A DNA stretch of 63,219 bases from Thiocystis minor (lineage in GTDB: Bacteria > Pseudomonadota > Gammaproteobacteria > Chromatiales > Chromatiaceae): the NCBI RefSeq assembly GCF_016653465.1, contig NZ_NHSQ01000079.1:1-63219 (forward strand). The letters are read 5' to 3'. Below the pieces are notes generated by a model. It did not search any database, was not told where the DNA came from, and worked only from the letters and a program-made list of their open reading frames with translations. Below, one piece after another: positions 6,008 to 52,430 of the stretch (its first letter is position 1; each line of letters starts with the position of its first letter). A program made the translations under genes and the position numbers.

Positions 6008-6008
6008 C

Positions 6009-7691: not shown

Positions 7692-8106
7692 GGCGGCGTG
7701 GCTCCCGGTCCGTGTCTGGTCACGAGTCTGAGATGCCACAAGCACATCACGCGCCAGAACGAGGGATGTAGGATGGGCAAATCCCGTGACAAGAAGCCGA
7801 GTCTGGCTGCGAGGCTGGTCGGGCGTTCCCATCCTCACCGCTCGGCGTCTCAAAAGACACGGATGGGAAGCGCCTGCCAAACCGAGGATTGGGACAAAAC
7901 GCCCCGGTCGATGACCGGCGTCGAGACTCTTTGTCCCAGCACGGACGCCAGTTCCATGGGCCGACCTCGGTCGCGAATGGGGGCGCCTGCAACGGCACGG
8001 AGCCTGCAAGACGTCAGATGACCTGAGCGGCGCGGAGTCCTACGCGTGGCGCACCGGTCAGGGGTCGCGCGCCCTCCGCGCTCGTCAATCGCCATCAGGA
8101 GATCGC
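7692..8106. promoter_or_regulatory. Divergent intergenic region between dabB and moaA, with nested hairpin
   Basis: This gene-free stretch must hold the promoters for the DAB operon (minus) and moaA (plus). A stem-loop pairs CCCATCC (7828-7834) with GGATGGG (7860-7866) and encloses a smaller GTCT/AGAC hairpin, so it could form structure in the DAB leader. I see no convincing -35/-10 pair, FNR box or sigma-54 site here. Confidence 0.35.
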
Positions 8107-10211: not shown

Positions 10212-11642
10212 TCAGTCCGCCTCGCTCGGGTCGCCCGGCTGACCCCATTCCTTGAGCTTGCGCTCCACCGTCTTCCTCGACACTCCCAGCGCGCGCGCCG
10301 CGACCGTCTTGTTGCCGCCGGCGGCGGAGAGCGCGTTCAGGATATGCGAGCGCTGCACCCGCTCCAGCGAGGTCGGATTGGACACCAGGGCGCGCTCGCC
10401 CGCGTCCGGCTCCGAGGGCGGCGTGACGCAGAGCAGATGGGCGACCGGCTTGCCCAGAAGCAGGGATCGCTCGATGACATTGCGCAGCTCGCGGCAGTTG
10501 CCGGGCCAGTCGTAGCCCATGAGCTGCTCCAGATCCCAGGGGCTGAGTTCCGCGTTGGGCAGGCCCAGTTCGGTGGACAGGACGTTGAGGAAGTAGCCCG
10601 CGAGGAAGGGGATGTCGCCCTTGCGTTCGCGCAGGGGCGGCAGGCGCAGATCGACCACATTGATGCGGTAATAGAGATCCTTGCGGAAGCGCCCGGCGAG
10701 CACCTCGGCGGCCAGATCGCGGTTGGTCGCGGCGATCACCCGGGCGTTGACCGGGATCTCCTGGTTGCCGCCGACCGGGCGGTAACGCCGCTCCTCCAGT
10801 ACCCGCAGCAGTTTCGCCTGCAAGGGCAGCGGCATCTCGCCGATCTCGTCGAGGAAGAGGGTGCCGCCATCGGCATGGCTGAAAAGCCCGTTGCGCGCCT
10901 GATGTGCGCCGGTGAAGGAGCCGCGCAGGTGTCCGAACAGCTCCCCCTCGATGAGGTCGGCGGAGATGGCGCCGCAGTTGACCGGGACATAGCTGCCGCG
11001 CCGGCCGCTGAGGTCATGGAGTGCGCGCGCGACCAGCTCCTTGCCGGTTCCGGTCTCGCCCTTGATCAGCACCGTCGAGGGCATGGGGGCGAGTCGATGA
11101 ATGGTCCGCCAGATATCCTTGAGCGACTCGCTCTCCCCGACGATCCGCTTGGCGGCGGGCCGACGATCCTGCTCGCGCTGGATCAATGCCTGCTCGCGCG
11201 CGACCCGCCGCCGCTCCCGCGCGCGGTGGATCACGGCCAGCAGTTGGTCGCCGAGGAAGGGTTTTCTCAGGACATCGGCCGAGGCGTCCCGCAGTGCGTC
11301 GATTTCGTCATAGATGTCTGCGTAGCCAGTGATGAAGATCACGTCCAGATCGACCTGGTAACGGTCGCGAATCTCGCGCGCCAGCTCCAGTCCGCTTGCC
11401 GGACCGGGAAGACGGATATCGACGATCATGAGATCGAAATGGAGGTTCCGGGCCAGCGCACGCGCGGCACTGGCGTCGGCGGCCGACTCCACGCGCTCGA
11501 AATGGGGGGCGAGCGAGCGCTCAAGGAAACTCAGCATGCCGGGCTCGTCATCGACGACGAGAATGGAGTCGCCCGCGTCCGTCGCGGTCTTGGCATCGCG
11601 CGCGAGGTCGAGCCCTCGGCTTTCGAGTGGCTGGGATGTCAT
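10212..11642 (-). CDS. NtrC-class sigma-54-dependent response regulator
   Basis: A 476-residue regulator in three domains. The receiver has ILVVDDEPG and the phosphoacceptor Asp in [10 protein letters not shown]. The AAA+ domain has Walker A GETGTGKE, the sigma-54 loop GSFTGA (a Ser variant of GAFTGA) and Walker [13 protein letters not shown]. The C-terminus is a Fis-type helix-turn-helix ([20 protein letters not shown]). Such proteins bind upstream sites and activate -24/-12 promoters. A strong GGAGGAG lies before the ATG. It is co-transcribed with the soluble histidine kinase and followed upstream by a DUF59 gene whose paralog precedes narG; the strongest sigma-54 promoter I see (42542) drives that paralog. 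Control of nitrate genes is therefore plausible but not shown. Confidence 0.9.
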
Positions 11643-12192
11643 GGTCTCCTCCTCCGCGTTGGTCGGTGGTTGGCGCGTGTGCGCCAGTCGCCAACGGTCT
11701 TTTTTTGAATGGATGACGCGACGCGGCTTTGGCGAAACCTGATCGCGCTTTGGATGTTGGATAGGTCATTCCCTTGTCAAGACAGCGATCGAACGTCGTC
11801 AAACAGGGCTGCAAGAACTGACGACGATGACACTCGACAAGCGCGAACCAGCACCTATCGTGAAGAAGAATATCGGTTTTCTATACCGGCACAAACGGAA
11901 TTTATTGGATTTTTGTATCGGGTTTCTCGATAGATAAACCGCTTTGATCCGTTTGTATGAATGAGTAATTGGGCGATTAACGAAAAAGCAATGCTGCTTT
12001 GCGGACGCGGTTAGAGCAGGCGATTGGAGTGGGAATAGATTTACCAGAAAACCCGCGTACCCGACTTGATTGCGGTCAAGGCAGGGTTTGCGGTTGTGAT
12101 TAAGGACGTGGTGTAGCTGAGGTTCGATGGATCAACTGCGTTTTTCAGATGGAGGGTGCAGAGGCGGTTGCCCGCCTCCCGATACCCCGTCT
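11643..12192. other. Intergenic region upstream of the two-component operon, no confident gene
   Basis: The stretch from about 11860 to 12000 is markedly AT-rich compared with its surroundings and probably contains the promoter of the minus-strand regulator operon. A short plus-strand frame at 11709-11933 has no recognisable content. Near 12160-12180 the bases GAGGCGG-TTGC-CCGCCTC form a GC-rich hairpin just beyond the stop of the DUF59 gene on the minus strand; it lacks a U tract. Confidence 0.4.
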
Positions 12193-13044
12193 TCAGATGT
12201 GGTTCGCCTCCTCGGCCACCGCTGGCTCGGGCTCGCCGGCTTCCCCCTGGTAGGCGCGGCGGAAAGCGTCGACGAAGGGCCGGAAATCCTTCACGGTGCC
12301 GTAGATGGCGACCACGCCCGCGCGCTGGCGGTCGTAGACCACGTTGACGCCTTCGGTGCGGCCGGCGGGGTTCGGGCGCGCCTCGCCGTTGTAGTAGATC
12401 CAGTGCCGGGCATGCACGGAAGCATAGATCAGATCCTGCTCGGCGTGGGTCAGCCAGAGGACGACATAGTTCCAACTGCCGATGCTGAGCTTGACCTTGT
12501 GGGTGGTCGTCTCGGGGGACTCGGGATCGACCTGCCACTGAAAAACCGGGATCGGACCTTCATAGGTCGGGTCCGCGTTGCCCTGCGGCCCTTCGATGAG
12601 CGGCGGCTCGAAGTCGGCGGGCGGCTCGGTCGGCGGTCCCTTCGACTTCGCCGGCTTGCCCTCGCCGGCCGCGAGCAAATCCTTCAGGTGCGGCGCGCCG
12701 CCGTGCCCGGGGTCGGGGATGGGATCCAGACCGTATTCGCGCAAATCTACTTGCAGCGGGTTGACGGAGGCTCCGCCGAGCAGTAAGGAGTCATCGTCAT
12801 AGGGTGGCTCGGTGTGGATCTCGATCGTCTCGAAGCGCGCATTCCGCAGCAGTTCCTCGACTGCGCGCTCCATGGTCGCGACCTTCTCGGCGTTGATCGA
12901 GTCGGGTGTGATCTCGATTTCGATACTCGACCCCTCGACGGCGATGCTCTTGACGAATCCGAGCGAGACCAGGTCACGCGAGCGGCCGGGAAAGCGGATT
13001 TGGCGCAGGAGATCACGGACTTGTTCAGGCAGCATGGGCGACAT
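12193..13044 (-). CDS. Two-domain DUF59/MIP18-type protein, copy 1
   Basis: A 283-residue protein. Residues 1 to about 90 resemble the DUF59/MIP18 (SufT/PaaD-like) domain found in Fe-S cluster assembly factors: EQVRDLLRQIRFPG, DLVSLGFVKSI, then EKVATMERAVEELL. A Pro-rich linker leads to a C-terminal domain with IPVFQWQVDPESP, GRTEGVNVVYDRQRAGVV and AIYGTVKDFRPFVDAF. The same two-domain layout and the same C-terminal phrases recur in the gene at 42659-43525, immediately before narG, so the two are paralogs. I start at the ATG at 13044, with AGAGGA upstream; the longer frame to 13980 is antisense to the GNAT gene and rejected. A role in metallocluster insertion or in regulating nitrate reductase is inferred from the paralog position. 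Confidence 0.75.
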   Translation of the reverse strand: MSPMLPEQVRDLLRQIRFPGRSRDLVSLGFVKSIAVEGSSIEIEITPDSINAEKVATMERAVEELLRNARFETIEIHTEPPYDDDSLLLGGASVNPLQVDLREYGLDPIPDPGHGGAPHLKDLLAAGEGKPAKSKGPPTEPPADFEPPLIEGPQGNADPTYEGPIPVFQWQVDPESPETTTHKVKLSIGSWNYVVLWLTHAEQDLIYASVHARHWIYYNGEARPNPAGRTEGVNVVYDRQRAGVVAIYGTVKDFRPFVDAFRRAYQGEAGEPEPAVAEEANHI

Positions 13045-13290
13045 CTCGGTTTTCCTCTGGGTGTGGTGGACTCGTTGGGAGTAAGCGAGATTCGAGCCAG
13101 GATGGAAGGCGAGTGGGCTCGCGACTCCATCGCGCGAGGCCAAGGCCAGCTTCGGCGTGGGATTGCGGCATGAGCGTCGCCAGGATCGGCGTCGCCGAAT
13201 CCGCCCTTGGCGACTTGGCGGCCATCCAGGAGCGGTACACTGCGGAAGAGGTGCCGGAGGTCGGCGCATCGCCTCAACGGAGAAAACACC

Positions 13291-13830
13291 ATGAAGCTTT
13301 TGACAGAACCCCGAGGGCGAGAAGATGAGATCATCGACCTCTTCACCGCGACCTTCACCGCGTCCGAGGGTATGGAAGAAGGCGCGCTGATCGGAAGCCT
13401 GGTGCTCAGCCTGCTGCGTGACACGGCGGAGACCGATCGCTTCGTCTTCACGGCCGAGGAAGACGGCAGGATCATCGGCGGTATCCTCTTCTCGCGGTTG
13501 ACCTATGAGCAGGATGACCGGACGGTTTTCATTCTGGCCCCCGTCGCCGTCGCGACCGATCAACAAGGGAAGGGCATCGGGCAGCGGCTGCTGACCCATG
13601 GCCTGGCCGAGCTGCGCGGCGCCGGTGTCGACATCGCCATGACCTATGGCGATCCGAGCTTCTATGCCAAGGTCGGATTCCGGCCGATCAGCGAGGCGGA
13701 TGCGCCAGCGCCCTTGCCGCTGAGCCGTCCCGAAGGCTGGCTGGGTCAGTCCCTGACGGACCGGACGATGGCCCCGCTGAAAGGCCCGTCCCGCTGTTTC
13801 GAGGCACTCAACGATCCACTGTTCTGGTAG
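13291..13830 (+). CDS. GNAT-family N-acetyltransferase
   Basis: A 179-residue acetyltransferase with the GNAT acetyl-CoA loop region LAPVAVATDQQGKGIGQRLL (about residues 90-109) and a downstream YGDPSFYAKVGFRP stretch typical of the YhbS-like group (predicted N-acetyltransferases). The start is the ATG at 13291 with GGAG at good spacing; an upstream in-frame ATG at 13207 has no support. The substrate is unknown. It is followed 11 bases later by rsgA on the same strand and probably forms an operon with it. The roughly 246 bases upstream separate it from the divergent DUF59 gene. Confidence 0.85.
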   Translation: MKLLTEPRGREDEIIDLFTATFTASEGMEEGALIGSLVLSLLRDTAETDRFVFTAEEDGRIIGGILFSRLTYEQDDRTVFILAPVAVATDQQGKGIGQRLLTHGLAELRGAGVDIAMTYGDPSFYAKVGFRPISEADAPAPLPLSRPEGWLGQSLTDRTMAPLKGPSRCFEALNDPLFW

Positions 13831-13841
13831 GAGCCATTCCG

Positions 13842-14930
13842 ATGGACCCTGACGACTTCGCCCGCTCTCATGACAGCGCGAGCATCGGACCCGCCAACCG
13901 CGATCCGTCGGCGCTCGCCGCACTGGGCTGGGGGCCTTTCTTCGCGCGGCAGACCGGCCTGGAGACGCTGGACGACACACCGGCGGCGCGCGTCGTCGCC
14001 GTCCATCGCAGCGGCCTTCGGATCCTTGGCGCTGGCTTCGTGGAGATCATCCCGCCGCGCGCCGATGCAACCGTGGGCGACTGGCTGCTGCTGGATCGTG
14101 TCCAGCCTCGGGCCAGTCGCGTCCTGTCCCGCAAAAGCCTGATCAAGCGCCGCGCGCCAGGTACTGGTCGGCAGGTGCAACTGATCGCGGCGAATATCGA
14201 CCAGATCTTCGTCGTCACCTCCTGCAATCAGGATTTCAACCTGGCCCGGCTGGAGCGCTACGTCGCGCTGGCCCTCGAAGCGGAGATCGAGCCGGTCATC
14301 GTCCTGACCAAGGCGGACCTGGTGACGGATCTACTATCCTGGATCGAGGAAGCGCGCAGGGTCTCGGAAGGGATCCCGGTCGTCGGGCTCGACGCCCGCG
14401 GGGACGAGCCGCTTGAGGCGCTGTCGTCCTGGTGCAAGCCAGGCCGGACCGTCGCATTCCTTGGATCTTCGGGTGTTGGAAAATCCACCCTGACCAACGC
14501 GCTTGCCGGGACCGACGCGATCGCGACGCAGGCCATCCGCGAAGACGACGCCCGGGGCCGTCATACGACGACTCGCCGCGAGCTTCACTTGATCCCCGGA
14601 GGCTGCCTGGTGCTGGACACCCCGGGCATGCGGGAATTGCAGTTGGCGGACGCCGCGTCCGGCATTGCCGATATCTTCGAGGACATTCAGGCACGCTCGG
14701 CGCAATGCCGGTTTGGGAACTGCCGGCACGAAGGAGAGCCCGGCTGCGCCGTCCGGGAGGCGGTCGAGCATGGCGAGCTTGACGCCGCACGGCTTCTGCG
14801 CTGGCGCAAGCTGATGGCGGAGGACGCCTTCAACTCCGCGAGTCTCGCCGAGCGCCGGACAAAAGACCGGGCATTCGGGAAGATGGTCCGAAGGGTGATG
14901 AAGGAGTCCAAGTCGCGCCGAGACTCCTGA
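13842..14930 (+). CDS. rsgA: Ribosome small-subunit-dependent GTPase A
   Basis: A 362-residue circularly permuted GTPase that checks late maturation of the 30S subunit. The order is an OB-fold N-terminus, then G4 (VLTKADL), then G1 (GSSGVGKST), G2 region (RGRHTTTRRE) and G3 (DTPGMRE), followed by the zinc-binding C-terminal domain with CRFGNCRHEGEPGCAV. This permuted order is diagnostic of RsgA/YloQ. It converges with cysH with only 7 bases between stops. Nothing unusual in length or motifs. Confidence 0.93.
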   Translation: MDPDDFARSHDSASIGPANRDPSALAALGWGPFFARQTGLETLDDTPAARVVAVHRSGLRILGAGFVEIIPPRADATVGDWLLLDRVQPRASRVLSRKSLIKRRAPGTGRQVQLIAANIDQIFVVTSCNQDFNLARLERYVALALEAEIEPVIVLTKADLVTDLLSWIEEARRVSEGIPVVGLDARGDEPLEALSSWCKPGRTVAFLGSSGVGKSTLTNALAGTDAIATQAIREDDARGRHTTTRRELHLIPGGCLVLDTPGMRELQLADAASGIADIFEDIQARSAQCRFGNCRHEGEPGCAVREAVEHGELDAARLLRWRKLMAEDAFNSASLAERRTKDRAFGKMVRRVMKESKSRRDS

Positions 14931-14937
14931 TCGCTCC

Positions 14938-15657
14938 CTACCGATGCAGCCCGCATTCGCGCTTGAGGCCGAAGAAGCGGGTCTCTTCCTCCCGCATGCC
15001 GGGCAGGAGCCGCGCGGTGGTGTGGACGTCGCCGATGGAGACATAGCCCTGATGCCGTAGCGGGTGGTCCGGGAGGTCGTGGCGGCGCAGGTAGCGATGC
15101 ACGTCGGACTCCCGCCAGTCGATGATGGGGTGGACCTTGAGGCGGCCGTCCTGTACACGCAGCACCGGCAGCTCGGCCCGGCTGCGCGCCTGCTCGCGCC
15201 GCAGACCGGCGAACCAGGCGCGGGCTTCCAGCTCGCTCAGGGCGCGCTCCATCGGCTCGACCTTGTTCATCCAGTTGTACTGGTCGATACCGCCCGCGCC
15301 CTGCTCCCACAGCCGACCGAGCCGCGCCTCCTGCCAGGCGGGGGAGAGCGCCGGGCGATAGACCTGAAGGTTGAGCGCGAGCCGGTCGTTCAGCGCGTCG
15401 ATCAGACGGTAGGTCTCGGCGAACAGATAGCCGGTGTCGATCAGGATCACCGGGATGTCCGGTTTCAGAAGGGTCAGCATATGCAGCAGCACCGGCGACT
15501 GGGCGCCGAAGCTGGAGGTGAGGACATGCCGCTCCGGCAGTTCCTCCAGCGCCCAGAGCGCGCGATCCTCCGCCGGCAGGTTCTCCAAGCGCCGGTTGAG
15601 GGCGGCGAGCGCGGCCTGGTCGCCGGCCAGGATGGCGTCGAGAGGGGTGTCAGTCAT
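14938..15657 (-). CDS. cysH: Phosphoadenylyl-sulfate (PAPS) reductase
   Basis: A 239-residue PAPS reductase. Visible motifs are the P-loop-like [25 protein letters not shown], and the C-terminal ECGLHR with the catalytic cysteine. The paired-cysteine motifs of Fe-S-containing APS reductases are absent, so PAPS rather than APS should be the substrate, with thioredoxin as donor. The product is sulfite. The ATG overlaps the end of the cysJ-cysI fusion by 8 bases, giving the E. coli-like order cysJ-cysI-cysH. Since the fusion has lost the sulfite-reducing active site, the fate of the sulfite made here is unclear unless another sulfite reductase is encoded elsewhere. Confidence 0.92.
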
Positions 15658-17200
15658 GGAAGTCCTCCGCTGGATTCACCACCGCCCGGACGAGGCCGTC
15701 GCGGATCAGATAGTCGCCGAAGCGCTCGCCGGGCTGGCGGCTCTCGGCGAAGCGCCCGAACAGGCCGTCGATCTCGGCCAGGATGGCGGTCTCGTCGAGG
15801 TTCTCGCGATAGAGCCGGTTGAGCCGGGTGCCGATGCCGTCGCCGCCGAACATGAGGTTGTAACGGCCCGGCCCCTTGCCGACCAGGGCCAGCTCGGCGA
15901 TATAGACCCGCACCGAGTCCCGCTCGCCGACCCGCTCCCCCAGGAAGCCCGAGGCCCCGCCGAGATGGTCTCGGCCGTGGGCCTGGTAGCGCCGCACCGC
16001 GACCGTGAGATGAGCCTCGTCCTCGCACTCCGCCTGACTGGAGGCGATCGAGTAGAGCCGCGGCTGGAGCGGGCGCAGCAGACCGGCCAGCGCCTCGGCC
16101 TCGACGCGGGCGGGATGGTCCGCGATCAGGTCGATGAGCTGACGCTCGCTCGCATAGGCCCGCAGAGCGGCGGCATCCGTCGCCAGCTCGGTCAGATCCG
16201 GCGTCTGCGCCAGCTCGGCCCAGGCGCGGACGCTCGCCGGATGCAGCTGCGTCAGCTCCAGCCGCTCGATCAGGGTCTGGCGCAGACCCAGCTCCGCGTC
16301 GGCTAGGCGCACCGGCGCTTCGCCGTCGAGTCCGAGCGTCGTCAGCACCGCGTCGGCCAGCGCCGGATCGTTGTGGAACCAGATCCCCAAGGCATCGCCC
16401 GGCTGGTAGCTCAGGACGCTGGGGTCGATCGACAGGGCCAGGTGGCGCACGTCCGCGACGGCGTCCTGGGTCGTGATGCGGCGATTCTCCAGCAGGGTCG
16501 CGGGGTAGGGGGTGTCCTTGGCGACAGTGGGCGGCGGGCTCGGACGGGCGCCCGGCAGGGACACCACGTTGCTCGGCCGGGCGGGCGCGAGCTGGGTCAG
16601 TCGCTCCAGGACATCCGCCGACCAGCGCTCGGAGTCGGCCGCGTAGTCCAGATCGCAGCACTGCAGCGGCAGGATGCGCCGCGCGCCCAGCTCCGCGAGC
16701 CGGTGATCGAAGTCGACCGCCGTGCGGCAGAAGTGCTCGTAGCTCGAATCCCCCAGACCCATGACGGCGTAGCTCAGCTGCTCCAGGCGCGGCGCGCGTG
16801 GGTCATGGAGGAAGGCGTGCAGGGCCTGGGCGCTGTCGGGCGGCTCGCCCTCGCCGTGGGTGCTGACGAGGAAGAGCACCAGGCGCTCCTTGGTCAGCCG
16901 GCGCGGGCCGAAGTCGCCCATGGAGCGCACCCGGATCTCCATCCCCTGGCCGAGCGCCCGCGCGCCGAGCCGCTCCGCGACCGCCTTGGCATTACCGGTC
17001 TGCGAGCCGTAGAGCAGGCTGACGGTCGCGGCCGGAGCGTGCTCAACGGCGGCGGGAGCCGCTTGACCGCTCAGGCCGGCCAGATAACCGCTGACCCAGG
17101 CGATCTGGGTCGGCGACAGATCCTTGAGCGCGATCTGGAGCGCGCGCAGTTGCCGGTCGTCCACCGGACTGGTCAGGGCGTTCAGGTGTGTCAGCGCCAT
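15650..17200 (-). pseudogene. cysJ-cysI deletion fusion (sulfite reductase remnant)
   Basis: A 516-residue open frame. Residues 1 to about 434 match the CysJ flavoprotein: the LSPTQIAWVSGYLAGL start, flavodoxin loops SQTGNAKAVAE and STHGEGEPPD, and the FAD-domain motifs YQPGDALGIW and RLYSIASSQAE up to GGASGFLGERVGE. The sequence then passes directly into the last 82 residues of the CysI hemoprotein (LVGKGPGRYNLMFGGDGIGTR ... [17 protein letters not shown]). Missing are the whole CysJ NADPH-binding domain and nearly all of CysI, including the four cysteines that hold the siroheme-linked 4Fe-4S cluster. The join near 15898 is in frame, so this is an operon-internal deletion of about 1.9 kb. 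It cannot reduce sulfite. The start at 17200 matches the CysJ N-terminus; the frame is open further to 17449. Confidence 0.88.
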
Positions 17201-17306
17201 CGTTCGGAATCCCCTGGCACCGGTCATGCGTCGCACTGGACGCCATTCGGGCGATTGCCCCCGTGCGCCGAAGTCTAGGTCGGGGTGCGAGACGACATAA
17301 AATGAT

Positions 17307-17318
17307 GATTCATGAATC
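17307..17318. promoter_or_regulatory. Palindrome in the cysJ/cysB divergent promoter region
   Basis: GATTCATGAATC is a perfect 12-bp palindrome 19 bases before the cysB-like ATG, within an AT-rich patch in an otherwise GC-rich region. It could be an operator for the LysR-type protein on its own or the divergent promoter. CysB sites are degenerate, so this is suggestive only. Confidence 0.4.
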
Positions 17319-17336
17319 GTTATCGCGAGGATTGAT

Positions 17337-18284
17337 ATGGAGCTGCGGCAACTGCGATCCCTGATCACGCTGGTCGAGACCCACTTCAATGTCAGTCGCA
17401 CGGCCGAGCGGCTGCACCTGGTGCAGTCGGCCGTGACCCAGCATCTCAAGCACCTGGAGACGGAGATCGGCGCGTCCCTGTTCGAGCGTCAGGGCAAGCG
17501 TCTGGTCGGGCTGACCGAGGTCGGCGGACAGGTCGCGCGCTACGCGGAGGAGGCACTGCGACAGACCGGTAATATCCTCGCGGTGGGGCGCGATCACGTC
17601 GAGGAGGCGCGGGGCGTGCTGCGGGTGGGCGCGACCCACACCCAGGCGCGCTATGTGCTGCCGCCGGTGATCCGGCGCTTCGTCAGCGCCTATTCGGAGG
17701 TGGAGCTACAGATCCATCAGGGGACGCCGGGGCAACTGGTGGATCTGGTCCTGCGCGATCGCGTCGACCTGGCGATCTGCACCGAGGCGCTCGGTGACAA
17801 GATCGGTCTCCAGGCCATCCCCTGCTACCGTTGGAACCGGGGCCTGATCGCGCCGCGCGGGCATCCCCTGCTCGACCTGGAACCCCTGACCTTGGCCAGT
17901 CTGTGCGAGCACCCGATCGTCACCTACGTCTTCGGCTTCACCGGGCGGGGCGGCTTCAGCGACTCCTTCGCCAAGGCCGGATTGCGCCCCAGGGTGGTGT
18001 TGAGTGCCGCCGACACGGATGTGATCAAGACCTATGTCCGCGAAGGGCTTGGCGTCGGCATCATCGCCGCCATGGCCTATCAGGCAGAGGAAGATGCCGA
18101 TCTCGGCCTGCGGGATCTCAGCGCGCTCTTTCCGTGGGAGGTGACCAAGATCGCCCATGCGCGCGACAAGCACCTGCGCAACTACCATCGACACTTCATC
18201 GCGCTCTTCAAGGCCGAGACCAGTGGCCCTATCGATCGCGCAAAAACCGCCGCTCGACGGTTGGCGAACACACATCTTTCCTAA
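17337..18284 (+). CDS. cysB: CysB-family LysR-type transcriptional regulator
   Basis: A 315-residue LysR-type regulator. The N-terminal winged helix has VSRTAERLHLVQSAVTQHLKHLE, and the effector domain has the CysB hallmark ATHTQARYVLPPVI, the sulfate/thiosulfate-pocket segments HQGTPGQLVDL and CTEAL, and PCYRWNR. CysB proteins activate cys genes in response to N-acetylserine and sulfide or thiosulfate. The gene is divergent from cysJ with 136 bases between, a classical arrangement. GAGG lies 7 bases before the ATG. Since cysJI is deleted, the regulator may now mainly serve cysH or unlinked genes. Confidence 0.88.
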   Translation: MELRQLRSLITLVETHFNVSRTAERLHLVQSAVTQHLKHLETEIGASLFERQGKRLVGLTEVGGQVARYAEEALRQTGNILAVGRDHVEEARGVLRVGATHTQARYVLPPVIRRFVSAYSEVELQIHQGTPGQLVDLVLRDRVDLAICTEALGDKIGLQAIPCYRWNRGLIAPRGHPLLDLEPLTLASLCEHPIVTYVFGFTGRGGFSDSFAKAGLRPRVVLSAADTDVIKTYVREGLGVGIIAAMAYQAEEDADLGLRDLSALFPWEVTKIAHARDKHLRNYHRHFIALFKAETSGPIDRAKTAARRLANTHLS

Positions 18285-18314
18285 TCTCGCGATCAGGCTC
18301 GACCGCGAGCGGAT

Positions 18315-18329
18315 GCGACAAAGTGTCGC
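18315..18329. promoter_or_regulatory. Inverted-repeat site GCGACA-AAG-TGTCGC upstream of the NarK cluster
   Basis: A perfect 6-bp inverted repeat with a 3-base centre lies about 208 bases before the first gene of the NarK operon. A near copy, GGAACA-AAG-TGTCTC, occurs at 42463-42477 upstream of the DUF59-narGHJI sigma-54 promoter; the two share the core ACAAAGTGTC. A weak -24/-12-like sequence (TGGCCT-N5-GTGC, 18449-18463) lies about 120 bases downstream. This could be an activator site shared by the two nitrate operons. Confidence 0.5.
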
Positions 18330-18536
18330 GTCTACGGTCGATCGCCACGCCATTTTGTCCCCGCCAACAGACGCCGAACCCCTGCCTGTCGTCCCTGAAT
18401 CCTCCCGCCCGCCCGCACTGGCAATGCCGAAGGTATTTCCCTGTTCGATGGCCTGTTTTGTGCTGAATGCTGGAGCAGGCGGCGAGCGCGTCCTCGCCAT
18501 CCGCCGTCATCCACCGCCGCACATTAGGAGGTCACC

Positions 18537-19001
18537 ATGCCCGAGACTGCAATCCCGACGCACAGCGGGCGCGAGCCCTGGCGCCCGAACCTGATTCCGC
18601 TGTCGACCCTGATGGTCGCCACCTGCGCACTCAGCGTTTATTTTCTCGTCGATACCTACCTCCTCCGGGAGCCAAGCGCGAAATACACCAAGGACGGCAC
18701 CGCCTTCATCCTGCGTCTTAAGGAACCGCTCGACACGGGGCTCGCGATCAAGGCGGGCGGGGCACGGCTGATTCAGACGATCGCCGTGGTTAAGCAACAG
18801 TCGGATGACCTCAAGACCGAGCTCGCCGAGCGCCTGACCCAGGATCAGACCTACCGGACCGATCTCGCGGACTTCATGACGCAGTTGGAGGACGCCGAGC
18901 GGATGATCGCCGGTCTCAAACAGGAAATCTCGGCGCTCCAACGGGAGCAGGCGGGCGCGAGCGGCGCGTCGACGGATGTGCAACGGATCAGCGGCGACTA
19001 A
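18537..19001 (+). CDS. Small membrane-anchored coiled-coil protein upstream of narK, unknown function
   Basis: A 154-residue protein with one N-terminal membrane helix (about residues 20-40, LIPLSTLMVATCALSVYFLV). A periplasmic-type segment and a long charged heptad region follow from about residue 80 to 140 (QQSDDLKTELAERL ... LKQEISALQREQ), a probable coiled coil. A strong GGAGG lies 6 bases before the ATG. I do not recognise the family. It precedes the NarK-type transporter by about 90 bases on the same strand, so a role in assembly or regulation of nitrate transport is possible but only by association. Confidence 0.7.
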   Translation: MPETAIPTHSGREPWRPNLIPLSTLMVATCALSVYFLVDTYLLREPSAKYTKDGTAFILRLKEPLDTGLAIKAGGARLIQTIAVVKQQSDDLKTELAERLTQDQTYRTDLADFMTQLEDAERMIAGLKQEISALQREQAGASGASTDVQRISGD

Positions 19002-19091
19002 CGCCGCAGCCTCCCCTTCACCATGCGCAAGTCGCGACGTCCAGTCGGCCGTCACTTGCGATCCGCCCATCGCAGCCATGAGGAGAGACCT

Positions 19092-20456
19092 ATGTCCACG
19101 ACCGCCGATGCCCTGCCGCGCGGCGCCACCGCCGCCGATGCACATCTGGAGACCAAGCCTGGCCGCTGGATCACCAACTGGAACCCCGAGAAGACCGCTC
19201 AATGGGAGTCGGTCGGCAAGCGGATCGCGCGCCGCAATCTTATCTGGTCCATGTTCGCCGAGTTCCTCGGCTTCGCCATGATGGGCGTCTGGGGCATGGT
19301 CGTCCCGCGCCTGCCGGACGCGGGGTTCACCTTCACTGCCGACGAGCGTTTCTGGTTGATTGCCGCGCCGGGTCTGACCGGCGCCCTGATGCGCTTCCTC
19401 TATACCTTCACGGTCCCGGTGGTTGGCGGGCGCAACTGGACCATCGCCTCGGCCCTGCTGCTCATGATCCCCTCGGCGGGTCTTGCCTACGCCGTCAGCG
19501 ATCCCTCGACCCCCTTCTGGCTGCTCATCATCATCGCGAGCCTCGCAGGATTGGGTGCGGGTAACTTTACCTCCTCCATGGTGAATATCTCCTTCTTCTA
19601 TCCGGAACGCGTCAAGGGTGCCGCGCTGGGGCTGAACGCCTCAGGCGGCAATCTGGGGGTCGCCTGGGTACAGTTCACCGTGCCGATCGTCATCATCACC
19701 GCCGGCGGACTGGCGCTGGATCGCGCCGGCCTGATCTTCATCCCGCTGTGCCTCATCGCGGCGATGGGTGCATTCTTCTTCATGAACAACCTGACCTGCG
19801 CGCGGGCCGACATCAAGAGTTTCGGTTTGGCGCTGGCGGAGAAGAACACCTTCATCATCGCCTGGCTCTACATCGGCACCTTCGGCTCCTACATCGGCTA
19901 CGCCAATACCTTCGCGACGCTTCTGAAGTCGGAGTTCCCCGAGGTGTCGATGAAGGTCGTCTTCGTCGGCGCGCTGCTCGGCGCCCTAGTGCGCCCCATC
20001 GGCGGCTGGCTGGCGGACCGCTACGGCGGGGCGCGCATGACCATGATCGTGTTCACCCTCATGTGCATCGGCAGCCTGGGTCTGGTGCTGACGCTGGAGC
20101 AGTTGAATTTCCCGCTCTTCCTCGGACTCTTCCTACTGCTGTTCGTCGCCGCTGGTATGGGCAATGGGACCGTCTATCGCATGATCCCGGCCGCCTTCCG
20201 GGCGCGCGCCATGGATCCGGAGACCGGTCAGCTCGACCCCGCCAAACTGGTCTCCGCGCGCCGTCTCGCGGGTGGCTGTATCGGTGTTGCCGGGGCGATC
20301 GGCTCGCTCGGCGCTTTCTTCATCCCCCGCGTCTTTGCCGAAGCTGGCATCGTCGGCGGCTTCGGGGTCTTCCTCGGCTGCTATGCCTCGATGCTCTTTA
20401 TGACCTGGTATTTCTATCTGCGGCGAGGCTCGCCGATGTCGATCGCCAATGTCTAA
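19092..20456 (+). CDS. narK: NarK-type nitrate/nitrite major-facilitator transporter
   Basis: A 454-residue, 12-helix protein of the nitrate/nitrite porter family of the major facilitator superfamily. The family's glycine-rich nitrate signature is seen in helix 5 (SLAGLGAGNFTSSMVNISFFYP, about residues 160-180) and again in helix 11 (GGCIGVAGAIGSLGAFFIPR). RFLYTFTVPVVGGRNWT carries the conserved substrate-binding Arg region. It imports nitrate for Nar or exchanges nitrate for nitrite. The ATG at 19092 has AGGAG upstream; an ATG at 19023 is less likely. It follows the coiled-coil membrane protein and precedes a universal stress protein, probably as one operon. Confidence 0.9.
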   Translation: MSTTADALPRGATAADAHLETKPGRWITNWNPEKTAQWESVGKRIARRNLIWSMFAEFLGFAMMGVWGMVVPRLPDAGFTFTADERFWLIAAPGLTGALMRFLYTFTVPVVGGRNWTIASALLLMIPSAGLAYAVSDPSTPFWLLIIIASLAGLGAGNFTSSMVNISFFYPERVKGAALGLNASGGNLGVAWVQFTVPIVIITAGGLALDRAGLIFIPLCLIAAMGAFFFMNNLTCARADIKSFGLALAEKNTFIIAWLYIGTFGSYIGYANTFATLLKSEFPEVSMKVVFVGALLGALVRPIGGWLADRYGGARMTMIVFTLMCIGSLGLVLTLEQLNFPLFLGLFLLLFVAAGMGNGTVYRMIPAAFRARAMDPETGQLDPAKLVSARRLAGGCIGVAGAIGSLGAFFIPRVFAEAGIVGGFGVFLGCYASMLFMTWYFYLRRGSPMSIANV

Positions 20457-20481
20457 CCACCGATTCCGGAGGGATACGACC

Positions 20482-20952
20482 ATGTTCAAGCACATCCTGG
20501 TTCCGACCGACGGAACCGATCTTGCGAAAGAGACCTGCCGGGCGGCGGCCGCCCTGGCGAAAACGCTTGGCGCTCGGATCACCGCCTACCATGCCAGGGA
20601 GCAGATCGCCTCGACCACCTTCTCGGCGGCGATCTTCGACGGCGATCTCGTCGACGCGAAGACCCGCGGGCAATTCGAGAAGGCGGTTGACGCGGCGGCG
20701 CGCAGCAGTCTGGACTTCGCCGAGAACATCTGCCGCGAGGCCGGCGTGCCTTGCAAGACCATGACGACAGCGACCGATAGTCCGCACGAGGGCATCCTCG
20801 ATGCGGCCGATCAGTGTGGGGCTGATCTGATCTTCATGGCCTCGCATGGCCGCAAGGGCTTCAAGGCCAGACTGATCGGCAGCGAGGCGCAGCGGGTTTT
20901 GACGGAGACTCGGATCCCAGTGTTGATTTACCGATGGGGAGATGCGGTCTGA
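20482..20952 (+). CDS. Universal stress protein (UspA family)
   Basis: A 156-residue single Usp domain: FKHILVPTDGT at the N-terminus and the nucleotide-binding signature MASHGRKGFKARLIGSEAQRV followed by PVLIYR near the C-terminus. The GxxGxxxG-type loop is only partly conserved, so ATP binding is likely but not certain. GGAGGG lies 7 bases before the ATG. It follows narK by 25 bases and is probably co-transcribed with it; Usp genes are common in anaerobic nitrate-respiration operons. Confidence 0.88.
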   Translation: MFKHILVPTDGTDLAKETCRAAAALAKTLGARITAYHAREQIASTTFSAAIFDGDLVDAKTRGQFEKAVDAAARSSLDFAENICREAGVPCKTMTTATDSPHEGILDAADQCGADLIFMASHGRKGFKARLIGSEAQRVLTETRIPVLIYRWGDAV

Positions 20953-20974
20953 TCCGGTCCAGCGCTTCGCTATC

Positions 20975-21120
20975 GGAACCGCGAAGGCGCAAAGGACGCA
21001 AAGGACGCAAAACAGAACCGAAGATTACCCCAGGTGTGCCGCTCATCACTTGGCTGAATGCCATCGGGTGAACGATGCACTGAAATCCTTCGTGTTCTTC
21101 GTGCCCTTTGCGGTTCACCC
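20975..21120. repeat. Imperfect palindromic intergenic element with GCAAAGGAC repeats
   Basis: The left arm (20975-21011) contains AACCGCGAAGGCGCAAAGG followed by nearly three tandem GCAAAGGAC units. The right arm (21084-21117) is an imperfect reverse complement (TTCGTGTTCTTCGTGCCCTTTGCGGTTC). The whole 146 bp would fold into a long imperfect hairpin. Sequences of this style are common interspersed intergenic repeats in proteobacteria. It separates the usp gene from the next ORF. Confidence 0.55.
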
Positions 21121-21148
21121 CATCTTGCTTGGCTGAAACCAAGAGGCC

Positions 21149-21592
21149 ATGACGCCCATGACGCCCATGACGACCGGACTCGAGCTGACATCTTTCGACG
21201 ACTTCCTGAAATTGGCCCGGCAACAAGCCGAGCCGCAGCAATTGCTCTTCGTGTTTACGCGCAACGAACTGCCCGCCGACCACACCCCCGATCAGGCCGC
21301 GTGCTTCGCTGCCGGCCAGGGCGGACATCTGGCACCGATCATCTGCGTGGACAAGGCGTTGCACGAGATCCCCGGCTTTGCGGCATTCGCCAGCGAGGCC
21401 GATGCACACATCGACGACTGGGCGGTGATTTTCGCCGCCGCCCTGCCAGGCATCGGCAACCGACCGCCCACGCCGCTCGCCATCAACCAGGCGCTCGACC
21501 GCATGGTCGAGACCGTGCGCGGCGGTCAGGTCGCGAGCTACCTGGCGTTTGATCGCGAGGGGATACCGCTGCGACTGGCGACCAGCCATTGA
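21149..21592 (+). CDS. Hypothetical protein of the family often labelled 'ribonucleotide reductase subunit alpha'
   Basis: A 147-residue soluble protein. The segments FDDFLKLARQQAEPQQLLFVF, GGHLAPIICVDKALHE and a C-terminal ASYLAFDREGIPLRLA match a small family that databases sometimes call ribonucleotide reductase subunit alpha. It contains none of the catalytic features of that enzyme, so I treat the function as unknown. Three in-frame ATGs lie in a near-tandem 9-base repeat (ATGACGCCC) at 21149, 21158 and 21167; AAGAGG before the first best serves the second or third. Its last 116 bases are duplicated downstream at 21998-22113. Confidence 0.65.
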   Translation: MTPMTPMTTGLELTSFDDFLKLARQQAEPQQLLFVFTRNELPADHTPDQAACFAAGQGGHLAPIICVDKALHEIPGFAAFASEADAHIDDWAVIFAAALPGIGNRPPTPLAINQALDRMVETVRGGQVASYLAFDREGIPLRLATSH

Positions 21593-21691
21593 GGATCCGA
21601 GTCGGATCCGGCCCACCCACGCAACGCGATGGACCAGTCCGCGGCTGGATTCGACCGCTTCGCCCACCATGAGTCAGACTGAGATCCATTG

Positions 21692-22181: not shown

Positions 22182-23477
22182 TCAGGTGAACATATCCGCC
22201 GTGATGTTGCGAAACCAGTCGTGGGCGAAGCGGGCCTCGACTGCTCGGATGCGGTCATCGGCGTCGCTCGGAGAAATTCCACCGGCCCCCTCGACCTCGA
22301 CGATCCGTCCGTCCGCGAGCGCGTAGACCCCCGCGACCGAGATCCCGTGCTCGGGCGCGATGAGGCTGTAGCAGGTATTGACGTAGGAGGGCTCCGGCGT
22401 TGGCGCGCCGGAGACGGCGGCGACGATGGCGGCCGCGCACACCTTGGCTTGGGAGTTCGCCGCATATCCGGATTTCGGCATGGTGCCGGCGATGCAGGCG
22501 TCGCCGATCACATGAATGTCCGGATGCAGGGTCGAGGCGAAGGTCCGCTGATCGACCGGACACCAGCCGCTGGCGTCGGTCAGCCCCGCTGATTCGGCCA
22601 GCGTGCCGGCCTTCTGGTGCGGAATCGGGTTGATGACCTGCCCTTGGAACTCCTCTACTTGTCCGATCAGGGTGCCGGTCTTGGGATCGATGCCTTCGAC
22701 GATTCCACCCGATGCCCCCGAGACCCATTCGATCATGTCGCCGTAGTGCTGTTTCCAGCCGGCCTGAAACAACCCTTGTTTGGAGAAGGCGTCCTTGGCG
22801 TCGAGGATGAGGATCTTGGATTTCGGCTTGTGCTTTGTGAAGTAGTGGGCGACCTGTGCGGCGCGTTCGTAGGGGCCTGGCGGACAGCGAAAGGGGTTCG
22901 GCGGGGCCGTGATGATGAAGACCCCACCATCCTCCATCGCCTCCAACTGCTGGCGGAGCTTCAGCGTCTGGGGACCGGCCTTCCAGGCGTGCGGGAAACG
23001 CTCCGCCACTTCCTGGGTCAGCCCCTCGATCCTGTCCCAGCGGAAGCTGACGCCCGGTGAGAGGATCAGCTTGTCATAGTTGTAGCGGCCGCCGCTGGCG
23101 CCGCGAATGAAGTGCGCAACGGGGTCGATCTCCAGGATCTCGTCCTGCACCACCGCGATGCCGCGCCGCGCCAGTCCGCGATAGCCGAAGGTCAGATCCT
23201 TGAGGTCACGCTCCCCGCTCAGCACCTCGTTGCTCATGGCGCAGGAGAGGAACACCGGATCCTTTTCGATGAGGGTGACGCGGATCGCCGGGTCGGCCAT
23301 GGTCAGATACTTGGCGGCGATGGTGCCGCCGAACCCGCCACCGACCACCAGCACCCGCGCCTTGGGCGCCGCCGCCGACACGCCGGGCGAGACACCGAGC
23401 ATGGCCGCGCCGAGCGCGACCGCCGAGGATTTGAGGAAGGCCCTGCGCTGCAAGTCAGTCATCTGGATCGCCCTCAT
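22182..23477 (-). CDS. fccB: Flavocytochrome c sulfide dehydrogenase, flavoprotein subunit
   Basis: A 431-residue periplasmic flavoprotein that oxidises sulfide and passes electrons to the cytochrome subunit. It has a Tat-type signal (QRRAFLKSSA, then a hydrophobic stretch to about residue 37) and the FAD-binding VLVVGGGFGGTIAAKYL. The Cys in FLSCAMSNEV (about residue 79) matches the position of the covalent 8-alpha-cysteinyl FAD link of the Allochromatium protein. Further cysteines in FRCPPGPYE and SGWCPVDQRT are candidates for the redox-active pair. The ATG overlaps the fccA stop as ATGA. Confidence 0.92.
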   Translation of the reverse strand: MRAIQMTDLQRRAFLKSSAVALGAAMLGVSPGVSAAAPKARVLVVGGGFGGTIAAKYLTMADPAIRVTLIEKDPVFLSCAMSNEVLSGERDLKDLTFGYRGLARRGIAVVQDEILEIDPVAHFIRGASGGRYNYDKLILSPGVSFRWDRIEGLTQEVAERFPHAWKAGPQTLKLRQQLEAMEDGGVFIITAPPNPFRCPPGPYERAAQVAHYFTKHKPKSKILILDAKDAFSKQGLFQAGWKQHYGDMIEWVSGASGGIVEGIDPKTGTLIGQVEEFQGQVINPIPHQKAGTLAESAGLTDASGWCPVDQRTFASTLHPDIHVIGDACIAGTMPKSGYAANSQAKVCAAAIVAAVSGAPTPEPSYVNTCYSLIAPEHGISVAGVYALADGRIVEVEGAGGISPSDADDRIRAVEARFAHDWFRNITADMFT

Positions 23478-24055
23478 TTCTCGCTCTCATAGAATCCGGC
23501 CAAGGCTTCGATCTCCTGGTCCGACAGGGCCATGACGCGCTCGCCCATCTTGTTGGGATGACAGCGTCGGCCGATGTCCCGACAGATCTCCAGCGCATAG
23601 CGCAGATAGCCGGACCACTGACCCGCCATGCGGGGCGACTCGTTGTGCTGCCCGCGCCCGCCGTCTTCGTGGCAGCTCTCGCATTGACGCTCATGGATCT
23701 CGCGGCCCGCGTGGATGCGGTCGGCGACCGCGACCTGATCCGTGGAGACCCAGGGTTGTTCGCCGAAAAAGGCCGCGATCGCCCAGATTTCCTGATCGGA
23801 ATAGCCCTTCATGATACGGCCCATGATGGTGGAAGGGCGCACGCCGAGCTTGTAGTCGCTGAGGACCGAAAACAGATAGCCGTTGTCCATGCCGCCGATG
23901 CTCGGCATCTGCGCTCCGGCGCTGGTGCCGTTGGTTCCGTGACAGCCGGCGCAGGTATTGGCGAGCATGCTCGGCGAACGCACGCCAGCGGCCTGAAGGT
24001 TCAGGCTGGTCAGCAGCCCGAGCGCGCACAAGGACAGCGAGGCGCGATGTCGCAT
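23474..24055 (-). CDS. fccA: Flavocytochrome c sulfide dehydrogenase, diheme cytochrome subunit
   Basis: A 193-residue secreted cytochrome with a signal peptide (MRHRASLSLCALGLLTSLNLQA) and two heme-binding motifs, CAGCH near residue 36 and CESCH near residue 130, each followed by a class I cytochrome pattern. It accepts electrons from FccB. AAGGAG lies 6 bases before the ATG. The frame is open upstream to 24184 but that part has no signal-peptide features. It heads the fccAB operon, divergent from the octaheme gene, with a perfect FNR-type box in the shared upstream region. Confidence 0.9.
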   Translation of the reverse strand: MRHRASLSLCALGLLTSLNLQAAGVRSPSMLANTCAGCHGTNGTSAGAQMPSIGGMDNGYLFSVLSDYKLGVRPSTIMGRIMKGYSDQEIWAIAAFFGEQPWVSTDQVAVADRIHAGREIHERQCESCHEDGGRGQHNESPRMAGQWSGYLRYALEICRDIGRRCHPNKMGERVMALSDQEIEALAGFYESEK

Positions 24056-24170
24056 GAGGAGTCTCCTTTGGTGGGGCGGGCGCCGAGCCGACGCAGCGCG
24101 TGGTTCCGCCGCGGTGCTGACGCTCTTTTTTTCGTTGTGCCGACTCTCTCCGAGCCGGGCGATCCTGGCC

Positions 24171-24184
24171 TTGATTTGGATCAA
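24171..24184. promoter_or_regulatory. FNR/ANR-type box between fccAB and the octaheme gene
   Basis: TTGATTTGGATCAA is a perfect match to the FNR consensus TTGAT-N4-ATCAA. It lies 116 bases upstream of the fccA ATG and 179 bases upstream of the octaheme-cytochrome ATG, so it could control either. The rest of the 307-base intergenic region has an AT-rich patch just before 24360 and no other signal I can support. Confidence 0.7.
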
Positions 24185-24362
24185 GGCCGAGCGGCCAATC
24201 GATGGGCACCTTCACGCAGGCGACAAAATTAAGGTCCGTCGCGCGGGCAGGCCATTCAGCCCGCCCGGCAGGGCCACGGACAGATCAGCCGTGACGCCGG
24301 AACCGACAGGCTCCCGTTCGCCTCCGCTGACCGATCATAAAAAAACCAAAGAGGAATGCACC

Positions 24363-25868
24363 ATGAAGCGACAGCCGCAAGGCTCCATCGCGGGCACGCT
24401 GATCAGGGTCGGTCTCGCCTCGGGTCTGTTGATCCTGGCGACCGCGGCCAATGCCGCGCGTCCAGGCGGCGAGTTGGGCGTCGACTGGGGCGATCCGCGC
24501 GGTCAGGAATGCGTGGACTGCCACATGATCGAGAGTCCCGGACTCTATCTGGAGTGGAACAGCAGCCAGCACGGTCAGGCCGGCGTGACCTGTCTGGATT
24601 GTCATCAGGCCAAGGAGGGCGAGATCGACGCCTTCAAGCACGAGGACGCGCTGATTTCCATCGTCGTCACGCCGAAGGACTGCTCGACCTGCCACAAGAC
24701 CGAGTTCGAGGAGATGGACGGCTCGCACCACGCCAAGGCCGGTCAGATTCTCGCCTCGCTCGACAATCTGCTCGGCGAGGTGGTCGGCGGTCCGGCCGCG
24801 GTCAATGCCGGCTGCAAGCAATGTCACGGCGGCGAACTGGAATTCATTACCGAGGGCAAGGACAAGGGCCGTCCCACGCCCGGCACCTGGCCCAACACCG
24901 GCATCGGCCGCGTCAATCCGGACGGCAGTCTCGGCTCCTGCACCGCCTGTCACGGACGCCATCGCTTCTCGCGCGCCCAGGCCCGCACGCCCGATACCTG
25001 CGGCAAGTGTCACGTCGGCCCCGACCATCCGCAGATCGAGATCTATAACGAATCCAAGCACGGCATCATCTACCGCGCCAAGGTCGACGAGATGAACCTG
25101 GAGTCGGATAAATGGGTCGCCGGCGTCGACTACAGCGCAGCCCCGACCTGCGCGACCTGCCACATGAGCGCCGGTCCAGGCATCGGTAAGACGCATAACG
25201 TCGGCGAACGGATCTCCTGGACCCTGCGCCCGCCCATCTCCACCAAGATCAATCTGGTCCGGCTGGAGAACGGCCAGGAATTCGACGTGCCCGAAGGCAA
25301 GGAGATCCCCAAGGTCGGCGACGCGGCCAAGGACTCCACCGTCATCGAGGTACTGACCTGGAAGGACCGCCGCGCCAAGATGGAGGCGGTCTGCTTCGGC
25401 TGTCATTCGACCAGCGTGATCGAGGGGCATTACAAACAGTTCGACGATGTCGTCGATCTCTATAACGAGAAATTCGCCAAGCCGATCGCCGCCGTCATGG
25501 ACGAATTGAAAACGGCCGGCTACATCACGCCCGCGCCCTTCGACGAGAAGATCGAATGGGTCTGGTGGGAGATCTGGCATCACGAGGGACGCCGCGCCCG
25601 TCATGGCGCCTCCATGAACGGCCCGGACTACACCTGGTGGCACGGCATCTACGATGTCAGCAAGAACACCTACTTCGAGTGGATCCCCGAGCTGAAGGAA
25701 GTCGTGCACAAGAAGGACGGCAACGAAGATTTCGCCGACGCCATGCTAAAGAAGCACTTCGCCTCCAACGAAGGGCATGACTGGTACTTCAACGGCATGA
25801 GCACGGAGCAGCTCGACAATGTACGCAAGGGCTTCGAGGCCCGGTATGGGAAGGGCTCCATGAAGTAA
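24363..25868 (+). CDS. Octaheme c-type cytochrome of the hydroxylamine oxidoreductase (HAO) family
   Basis: A 501-residue secreted protein with a signal peptide (to about residue 32) and eight CxxCH motifs: CVDCH, CLDCH, CSTCH, CKQCH, CTACH, CGKCH, CATCH and CFGCH. Their spacing matches the HAO family. Members oxidise hydroxylamine or hydrazine when the catalytic heme is cross-linked to a tyrosine, or reduce nitrite or hydroxylamine when it is not. I cannot tell from sequence alone which applies: a Tyr is present in GPDYTWWHG near residue 422, but its equivalence to the cross-linking residue needs an alignment. A good AGAGGA precedes the ATG. A perfect FNR box 179 bases upstream suggests anaerobic expression, which favours a reductive role beside nitrate reductases. 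Confidence 0.9.
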   Translation: MKRQPQGSIAGTLIRVGLASGLLILATAANAARPGGELGVDWGDPRGQECVDCHMIESPGLYLEWNSSQHGQAGVTCLDCHQAKEGEIDAFKHEDALISIVVTPKDCSTCHKTEFEEMDGSHHAKAGQILASLDNLLGEVVGGPAAVNAGCKQCHGGELEFITEGKDKGRPTPGTWPNTGIGRVNPDGSLGSCTACHGRHRFSRAQARTPDTCGKCHVGPDHPQIEIYNESKHGIIYRAKVDEMNLESDKWVAGVDYSAAPTCATCHMSAGPGIGKTHNVGERISWTLRPPISTKINLVRLENGQEFDVPEGKEIPKVGDAAKDSTVIEVLTWKDRRAKMEAVCFGCHSTSVIEGHYKQFDDVVDLYNEKFAKPIAAVMDELKTAGYITPAPFDEKIEWVWWEIWHHEGRRARHGASMNGPDYTWWHGIYDVSKNTYFEWIPELKEVVHKKDGNEDFADAMLKKHFASNEGHDWYFNGMSTEQLDNVRKGFEARYGKGSMK

Positions 25869-47301: not shown

Positions 47302-47305
47302 CCTC

Positions 47306-48856: not shown

Positions 48857-48858
48857 CC

Positions 48859-51125: not shown

Positions 51126-51206
51126 ATGGGTAGAGCGAAGCGAAACCCATCTTCCCAACGCCGAACCTCAAGCGTGAGTAGGGTGCGGTCAGGGACGAAC
51201 CGCACC
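51124..51206. repeat. Two intergenic hairpin repeats after narI
   Basis: A stem pairs AGATGGGT (51124-51131) with ACCCATCT (51145-51152) around a GAGCGAAGCGA loop. A second pairs GGTGCGGT (51182-51189) with ACCGCACC (51199-51206). They lie between the narI stop and the next gene. They resemble common interspersed repeats of gammaproteobacteria and may weaken read-through. Confidence 0.6.
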
Positions 51207-51291
51207 AGCCGGTTGAGGAACGTACCGGGGCCTTTGACATCTTTACGGGTCCGCGTCCCTTGGCATTCCAACTCCTGGCGGAACAAGAGTC

Positions 51292-52386: not shown

Positions 52387-52430
52387 CCCTCGGAGTGACG
52401 CGCCCTTTCGGTTCACAGGAGCCATCGCCC

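Follow-up and report, generated by a model that had tools for sequence, protein, structure and literature searches.

A cysJ–cysI fusion in Thiocystis minor, very probably left over from a redundant second cysJIH operon, and repeated loss of cysJI beside cysH in Chromatiaceae

The purple sulfur bacterium Thiocystis minor carries an open reading frame in which the front of cysJ is joined to the end of cysI. This fusion is very probably what is left of a second, redundant cysJIH operon after one 1,910-bp deletion between chance 8-bp repeats. The window, that is, the whole stretch of DNA analysed (63,219 nucleotides), comes from contig NZ_NHSQ01000079.1 (C79). The assembly, GCF_016653465.1 (G000), has 5.3 Mb in 198 contigs and is rated 100% complete. 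The locus in the window contains the following features.

15653..17200, minus strand: fused frame cysJ'::'cysI, 516 aa, stop at 15650–15652, with domain, profile and PDB matches
15893..17200, minus strand: CysJ-derived part, residues 1–436; flavodoxin domain at 16646–17017, FAD-binding domain at 15944–16522
15653..15898, minus strand: CysI-derived tail, the last 82 codons of cysI
15893..15900, minus strand: junction, the 8-bp word TCGCCGAG, which T. violacea DSM 207 has in both its intact cysJ and its intact cysI
14938..15657, minus strand: cysH, phosphoadenylyl-sulfate reductase, 239 aa, intact, overlapping the end of the fused frame by 8 bp
17337..18284, plus strand: divergent CysB-type LysR regulator, 315 aa, intact

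The fused frame and its junction

Residues 10–435 and 430–516 of the fusion derive from CysJ and CysI, respectively, of the NADPH-dependent assimilatory sulfite reductase (6efv, 9c91, 1aop). The frame starts with an ATG at 17200, and its 516 codons contain no internal stop. Pfam searches detected Flavodoxin_1 (PF00258) at residues 62–185 and FAD_binding_1 (PF00667) at residues 227–419, both over cut-off. No NAD-binding domain was present among the Pfam matches of the fusion, and the CysJ alignment ended at residue 435. With NCBIfam, residues 10–435 aligned with positions 3–438 of 597 in the cysJ model TIGR01931; the score was 431.6 bits, below the equivalog cut-off of 668.15, and the fusion is not a full-length CysJ. 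Residues 430–504 aligned with positions 467–541 of 541 in the CysI model TIGR02041, at 95.7 bits, far below the cut-off of 756.55. PDB chains of the sulfite reductase flavoprotein matched up to residue 435, and residues 485–570 of a 570-residue sulfite reductase hemoprotein matched residues 431–516. We take this hemoprotein (CysI) and the other matched chains to be from E. coli.

Compared with intact loci, the operon order and the flanking cysB and cysH are the same, whereas the fusion lacks about 158 C-terminal residues of CysJ (the NADPH domain) and 477 N-terminal residues of CysI. We assume that CysI has four ligand cysteines (E. coli numbering), all of which lie before the part kept in the fusion. 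The same genome's intact CysI has its last CxxxC just ahead of the segment retained in the fusion; the kept CysI residues all come after it, and the siroheme/4Fe–4S cysteines are not in the fusion. Because both the NADPH site and the siroheme site are absent, we infer that the fusion is unable to reduce sulfite. It is probably useless.

The neighbouring genes were full length. The cysH product scored 263.6 bits, above the cut-off of 254.2 for the PAPS reductase model TIGR02057. The regulator was 95% identical to its T. violacea DSM 207 counterpart and scored below the curated CysB cut-offs. A NarK/NarU-like transporter, also under the curated cut-offs, is located at window 19023–20456.

The locus was compared with the orthologous and colinear cysB–cysJIH locus of T. 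violacea DSM 207 (NZ_NRRG01000009.1), with which it shares 94–95% DNA identity; the match takes in cysB, cysH and the NarK-like gene nearby. Window 14901–18400 aligned with the DSM 207 sequence (L040) in two blocks, one of 2,508 bp with 94.1% identity and one of 967 bp with 95.2% identity. The DSM 207 locus is intact, whereas 1,910 bp between the two blocks are absent from the window. At the protein level, residues 1–434 of the CysJ part were 95% identical to DSM 207 CysJ. The skipped length was also 1,910 bp against Thiorhodococcus mannitoliphagus, and 1,916 bp against the relative listed with it as T. minor, a genome other than that of the window. Thus, relatives carry an intact orthologue that differs from the window copy by one missing segment.

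In T. violacea DSM 207, both edges of this segment carry TCGCCGAG, and the repeat extends to 12 bp with one mismatch (TATnTCGCCGAG). Among 200,000 random pairs of cysJ and cysI breakpoints in the DSM 207 genes, 0.07% had an exact shared word of at least 8 bp. Loss between short direct repeats usually leaves such a shared word at the junction. The cysJ and cysI genes each carry one copy of this chance 8-bp direct repeat, and a single 1,910-bp deletion between the copies would produce the arrangement observed here. A length of 1,910 bp is not a whole number of codons; the fused frame is open because cysJ and cysI overlap by 4 bases and occupy different frames.

The initial annotation had described an intact frame in which the CysJ flavodoxin and FAD domains run into the final 82 residues of CysI, and from which the NADPH domain and every siroheme/4Fe–4S ligand are missing. 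The Pfam, NCBIfam and PDB alignments, which end at CysJ residue 435 and resume after the last CxxxC, and the uninterrupted 516-aa frame bear this out. Its 1.9 kb of missing DNA corresponds to the 1,910 bp by which the intact, colinear DSM 207 locus is longer, and its reading of the region as a decaying sulfite reductase locus is likewise supported. What it called an in-frame deletion is an in-frame fusion; the deletion itself is not a multiple of three. Its joint near 15898 was close, as the 82 CysI codons begin at 15898 and the junction spans 15893–15900. It had also called cysH and cysB intact, which agrees with their length and with the cysH score.

The junction is known from one draft assembly in 198 contigs, and it could in principle be an assembly artefact, with cysJI intact at the C79 locus in the cell. 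This is very improbable. The word shared by the two edges is 8 bp (12 bp with one mismatch), which is far below assembly word lengths and should not have misled an assembler. The NIR_SIR and NIR_SIR_ferr searches found no second CysI core elsewhere in the assembly, whose completeness is rated at 100%. Furthermore, other assemblies contain independent deletions at the corresponding locus (see below).

A second, complete cluster and the age of the deletion

A complete cysB–cysJ–cysI–cysH cluster is present on another contig (C70, locus L005) of the same genome.

C70 6074–7045, minus strand: cysB
C70 7142–8965: cysJ, 607 aa
C70 8965–10647: cysI, 560 aa
C70 from 10640: cysH

Both subunits scored over the NCBIfam equivalog cut-offs (CysJ, 685 vs. 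668 bits; CysI, 864 vs. 757 bits). The only NIR_SIR or NIR_SIR_ferr matches in the genome were the C70 CysI and two adjacent genes on contig C57 (frames of 451 and 381 codons), which are presumably of the DsrA/DsrB type. Because C70 carries the complete cluster, assimilatory sulfite reductase is retained in the genome. To judge from the sequences, the damaged C79 copy was redundant: another copy, predicted to be functional, exists elsewhere in the genome, and loss of cysJI on C79 would have been tolerated owing to it.

This result contradicts, at sequence level, the proposal in the initial annotation that the deletion removed sulfite reductase activity, since the search it had suggested for another assimilatory sulfite reductase found a complete one. 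That the organism gave up assimilatory sulfite reduction, like specialised sulfide-oxidisers, is scarcely credible. Absence of the pathway is known in the family: the cited parts of the sources describe Thiocapsa bogorovii BBS as having neither PAPS reductase nor sulfite reductase (PMC10892978) and 'Tsp. jenense' DSM 216 as lacking assimilatory sulfate reduction (PMC10609205). In the window's organism, however, the complete cysJIH on C70, with CysJ and CysI over curated cut-offs, contradicts an organism-wide loss at sequence level. A sulfide-based lifestyle that made sulfite reduction dispensable is superfluous as an explanation because the C79 copy was redundant.

The C79 and C70 clusters differ in descent, as judged from the sequence tree. 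Their CysJ proteins were 56% identical. In the tree, the C79 copy grouped with that of T. violacea DSM 207 as its sister (support 99/99), and the sister of the C70 copy was that of G005, a genome of the window's genus (100/99). The C79 copy may have been either transferred or retained; window 11000–21600 was colinear with both T. violacea DSM 207 and DSM 208. G005 matched window 22182–24000 at a separate place and, besides that, only through its own cys cluster and short repeats. The fusion protein found matches in two of the seven genus genomes, G000 (included in the count) and G005.

Codon models were applied to three sequences, the window, T. violacea DSM 207 and Thiorhodococcus mannitoliphagus. 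For CysJ codons 1–434, the window branch had an omega of 0.161 and the other branches one of 0.116 (equality not rejected, p = 0.47), and omega = 1 was rejected on the window branch (p = 8e-4). The 82 CysI codons alone gave an omega of 0.204, with omega = 1 not rejected (p = 0.29). When T. minor was used as the third sequence, the best grid omega for the CysJ part was about 0.10. If the old constraint is assumed before the deletion and none after it, the neutral share of the window branch is best estimated at about 5%, with a 2-log-unit limit of about a third. As no relaxed selection on the CysJ part was detectable in these three-sequence models, the deletion is probably recent. The low omega fits either a recent deletion or, equally, continued constraint on the fused protein.

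The second option leads to the proposal, also raised in the initial annotation, that the fusion is a working new flavoprotein, with FMN and FAD, no NADPH site, another electron donor and the CysI tail as a docking piece. The open frame and the rejection of omega = 1 on the window branch speak for it. Nevertheless, an omega indistinguishable from that of the intact gene is also what a recent deletion predicts, and the fusion is present in only 1 of 210 genomes of the order. It was absent outside G000 in sets of 7 genus, 194 family and 210 order genomes, which overlap and each include G000; its architecture is therefore not conserved across lineages.

The AlphaFold2 model of the fusion bears on the same question. 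The alignment had 47 rows (the fusion, 23 CysJ parts and 23 CysI tails), and the model had a mean pLDDT of 68.6 and a pTM of 0.38. The flavodoxin domain was modelled at 88–98, which favours a working flavoprotein, and the helical connecting domain (281–380) at 75–93. The FAD barrel (blocks 211–270 and 381–440) reached only 28–45 and the CysI tail 31–66. The intact DSM 207 CysJ, used as a control with fewer sequences (20 rows), had a pLDDT of 82.3 and a pTM of 0.70; its barrel (blocks 221–270 and 381–440) was at 65–94 and its linker block 211–220 at 35. The models are suggestive of FAD binding having been lost together with the NADPH domain, the fusion and control alignments differing in make-up. 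Among the best 50 rows of a fold search with the fusion were cytochrome P450 reductases, a nitric oxide synthase reductase and sulfite reductase flavoprotein, with TM values of about 0.3; they add nothing beyond the sequence. Overall, a new flavoprotein is unlikely, and positive support for it was not found in its distribution, its omega or its FAD barrel.

Other parts of the window contain genes of different kinds. Window 43522–54773 encodes two subunits resembling those of nitrate reductase, alpha (molybdopterin) and beta (Nitr_red_bet_C), followed at some distance by another molybdopterin oxidoreductase. At 24054–25868 lies a gene for a multihaem protein of cytochrome c-like type, and at 30699–32045 one for a chromate-transporter family protein. 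At 1933–8009, a 921-aa frame with no NCBIfam match at E 1e-20 lies near an NADH dehydrogenase subunit 5-like frame; we take this gene pair to resemble a DAB inorganic-carbon system.

Reduced cysJI loci across Chromatiaceae

Among 194 Chromatiaceae genomes, 48 had a CysH match at E ≤ 1e-30. Two of them (G120 and G134, 37% identity) were set aside, leaving 46. Near-full CysI was present in 40 of the 46, counting G174, in which a contig edge truncates CysI. One genome (G069) had its locus cut by a contig end and was placed in neither class. In the remaining five (G021, G092, G105, G144 and G192), the CysI core was wholly or partly lost and cysH was intact. Reduced loci could be reached in this survey only through genomes positive for cysH or cysJI. 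The five belong to five genera, none of them that of the window; G105 is T. violacea DSM 208. With the window, six genera have cysJI lost or broken beside an intact cysH, the window's genus in one of two copies only.

The remnants were composed as follows. In T. violacea DSM 208 (G105, L121/L056), CysJ 1–218 is followed by the last 16 CysI codons; this deletion is at the locus orthologous to the window's, with different breakpoints. In G021, CysJ runs to about residue 96 with a frame change and is followed by about 22 CysI codons. G192 has no CysJ, and CysI 62–93 is joined in frame to about 475–558. In G092, the last 40–52 CysI codons remain. In G144, CysJ 1–550 is joined in frame to CysI 129–343, and after a second gap CysI continues from 493 on.

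L128 (G144:C136:36000-48000) 4978–7660: CysJ::CysI join of G144, open frame of 851 aa, cysB and cysH intact

As in the window, cysJI is broken or removed, cysH is intact and the cysI end is kept in all five loci, and in G144 CysJ is likewise joined in frame to CysI. The G144 frame is composed differently from the fusion and is further truncated. The five loci differ from the window in their breakpoints, which indicates independent events. A Pfam NIR_SIR search was run on 10 chosen genomes. It detected only two Dsr-like genes in G021, G105 and G192, and the same plus the remnant in G144; unlike the window's genome, these four of the five thus showed no other assimilatory sulfite reductase by NIR_SIR. 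G092 contained a further sulfite/nitrite-reductase-like gene (frame of 578 codons). A CysB-type regulator adjoins four of the five reduced loci; for G092, none lies within the 8 kb taken.

The converse case is Thiobaca trueperi (G039), which has cysJI without a cysH of this kind. At L148 1748–6512, intact cysJI is followed, in place of cysH, by a frame resembling a cysteine synthase.

Other irregular loci were also seen. T. violacea DSM 207 has a second cysJIH copy with cysJ split over two contig ends (L119 1–917 and L120 6655–7869; contigs C48 and C97). As both ends resemble mobile-element sequence, cysJ was likely interrupted by an insertion. G188 has an extra cysH (L141, G188:C1:5183000-5193000, 5028–5828) with no cysI tail found ahead of it, in addition to an intact cysJIH. 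At G204:C4:15207-18629, CysJ is present and the CysI tail lies in a 152-aa frame, possibly through a cysI frameshift.

In the literature, none of the matches listed described a cysJ::cysI fusion or repeated loss of cysJI beside cysH. In Allochromatium vinosum, sulfate assimilation is assigned to cysDN, cysH and cysI in the cited part of the study (PMC3368242). A similar case is an isolated cysH in two Thiorhodovibrio strains, which, in the part of the account cited here, have no other cys gene; its authors infer a recent acquisition beside transposases and consider that CysA likely serves transport (PMC10609205).

The cysI end and the persistence of cysH

In all six reduced loci, the window included, the last 16–84 cysI codons are kept, and a purine-rich stretch precedes the start of cysH.

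15658..15670, minus strand: purine-rich stretch GCGGAGGACTTCC within the last cysI codons, just upstream of the cysH ATG; probable cysH ribosome-binding site

Intact loci, T. violacea, Thiorhodococcus and Thiocapsa among them, have the cysH ATG inside the last cysI codons or immediately next to them, preceded by GCGGA(A/G)GACTTCC. The cysH ribosome-binding site is likely written in CysI codons in those loci. Other upstream contexts were found in G085, G111, G041 and G052, whose starts were picked automatically; the cysH starts of several genes, including those of G021, G092 and C70, were read from the upstream letters.

The right-hand deletion edges were closer to cysH than random ends would be. 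For this post hoc test (n = 6, Fisher p = 0.0013), a left edge was assumed for G092, and G105 was entered with 15 CysI codons, compared with 16 in the alignment. The surviving cysI end would persist as the translation-initiation region of cysH, and deletions that spare cysH would therefore stop short of it, here and in the five other genera. The six loci and this post hoc test suggest that the cysI tail is kept as a translation leader for cysH, and we infer that cysH expression may limit how far these deletions reach.

The cysH genes themselves appeared constrained. Omega = 1 was rejected for cysH in each of the five reduced genomes (p at most 0.034, in G092), with long branches to G021 and G192 in these tests. 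The CysJ remnants of G105 and G144, on short branches, were under constraint equal to that of cysH, so in these two genomes cysH may simply have lacked the time to decay. For G021 cysH, omega was 0.178 compared with 0.049 in its relatives when G152 and T. violacea were used (p = 0.024); the comparison based on G152 and G174 gave p = 0.16.

A broader reading is possible, though doubtful. Chromatiaceae might lose cysJI repeatedly and keep cysH, and mostly the regulator, as CysH has a use free of sulfite reductase; truncated CysI frames, including the window fusion, would then be kept as translated leaders ending in the cysH ribosome-binding site. Candidates for a second use of CysH would be PAPS turnover or the delivery of sulfite to another pathway.

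The locus warns against inferring a lost activity from one locus. The fusion is a snapshot of gene loss under redundancy, with both the repeats and the intact relatives to hand. What matters more than the fusion itself is that cysJI has been lost repeatedly next to a cysH that survives. The four genomes with no other assimilatory sulfite reductase by Pfam NIR_SIR raise the question of the role of CysH; in them, the product of PAPS reductase could only be oxidised or pass to dissimilatory enzymes.
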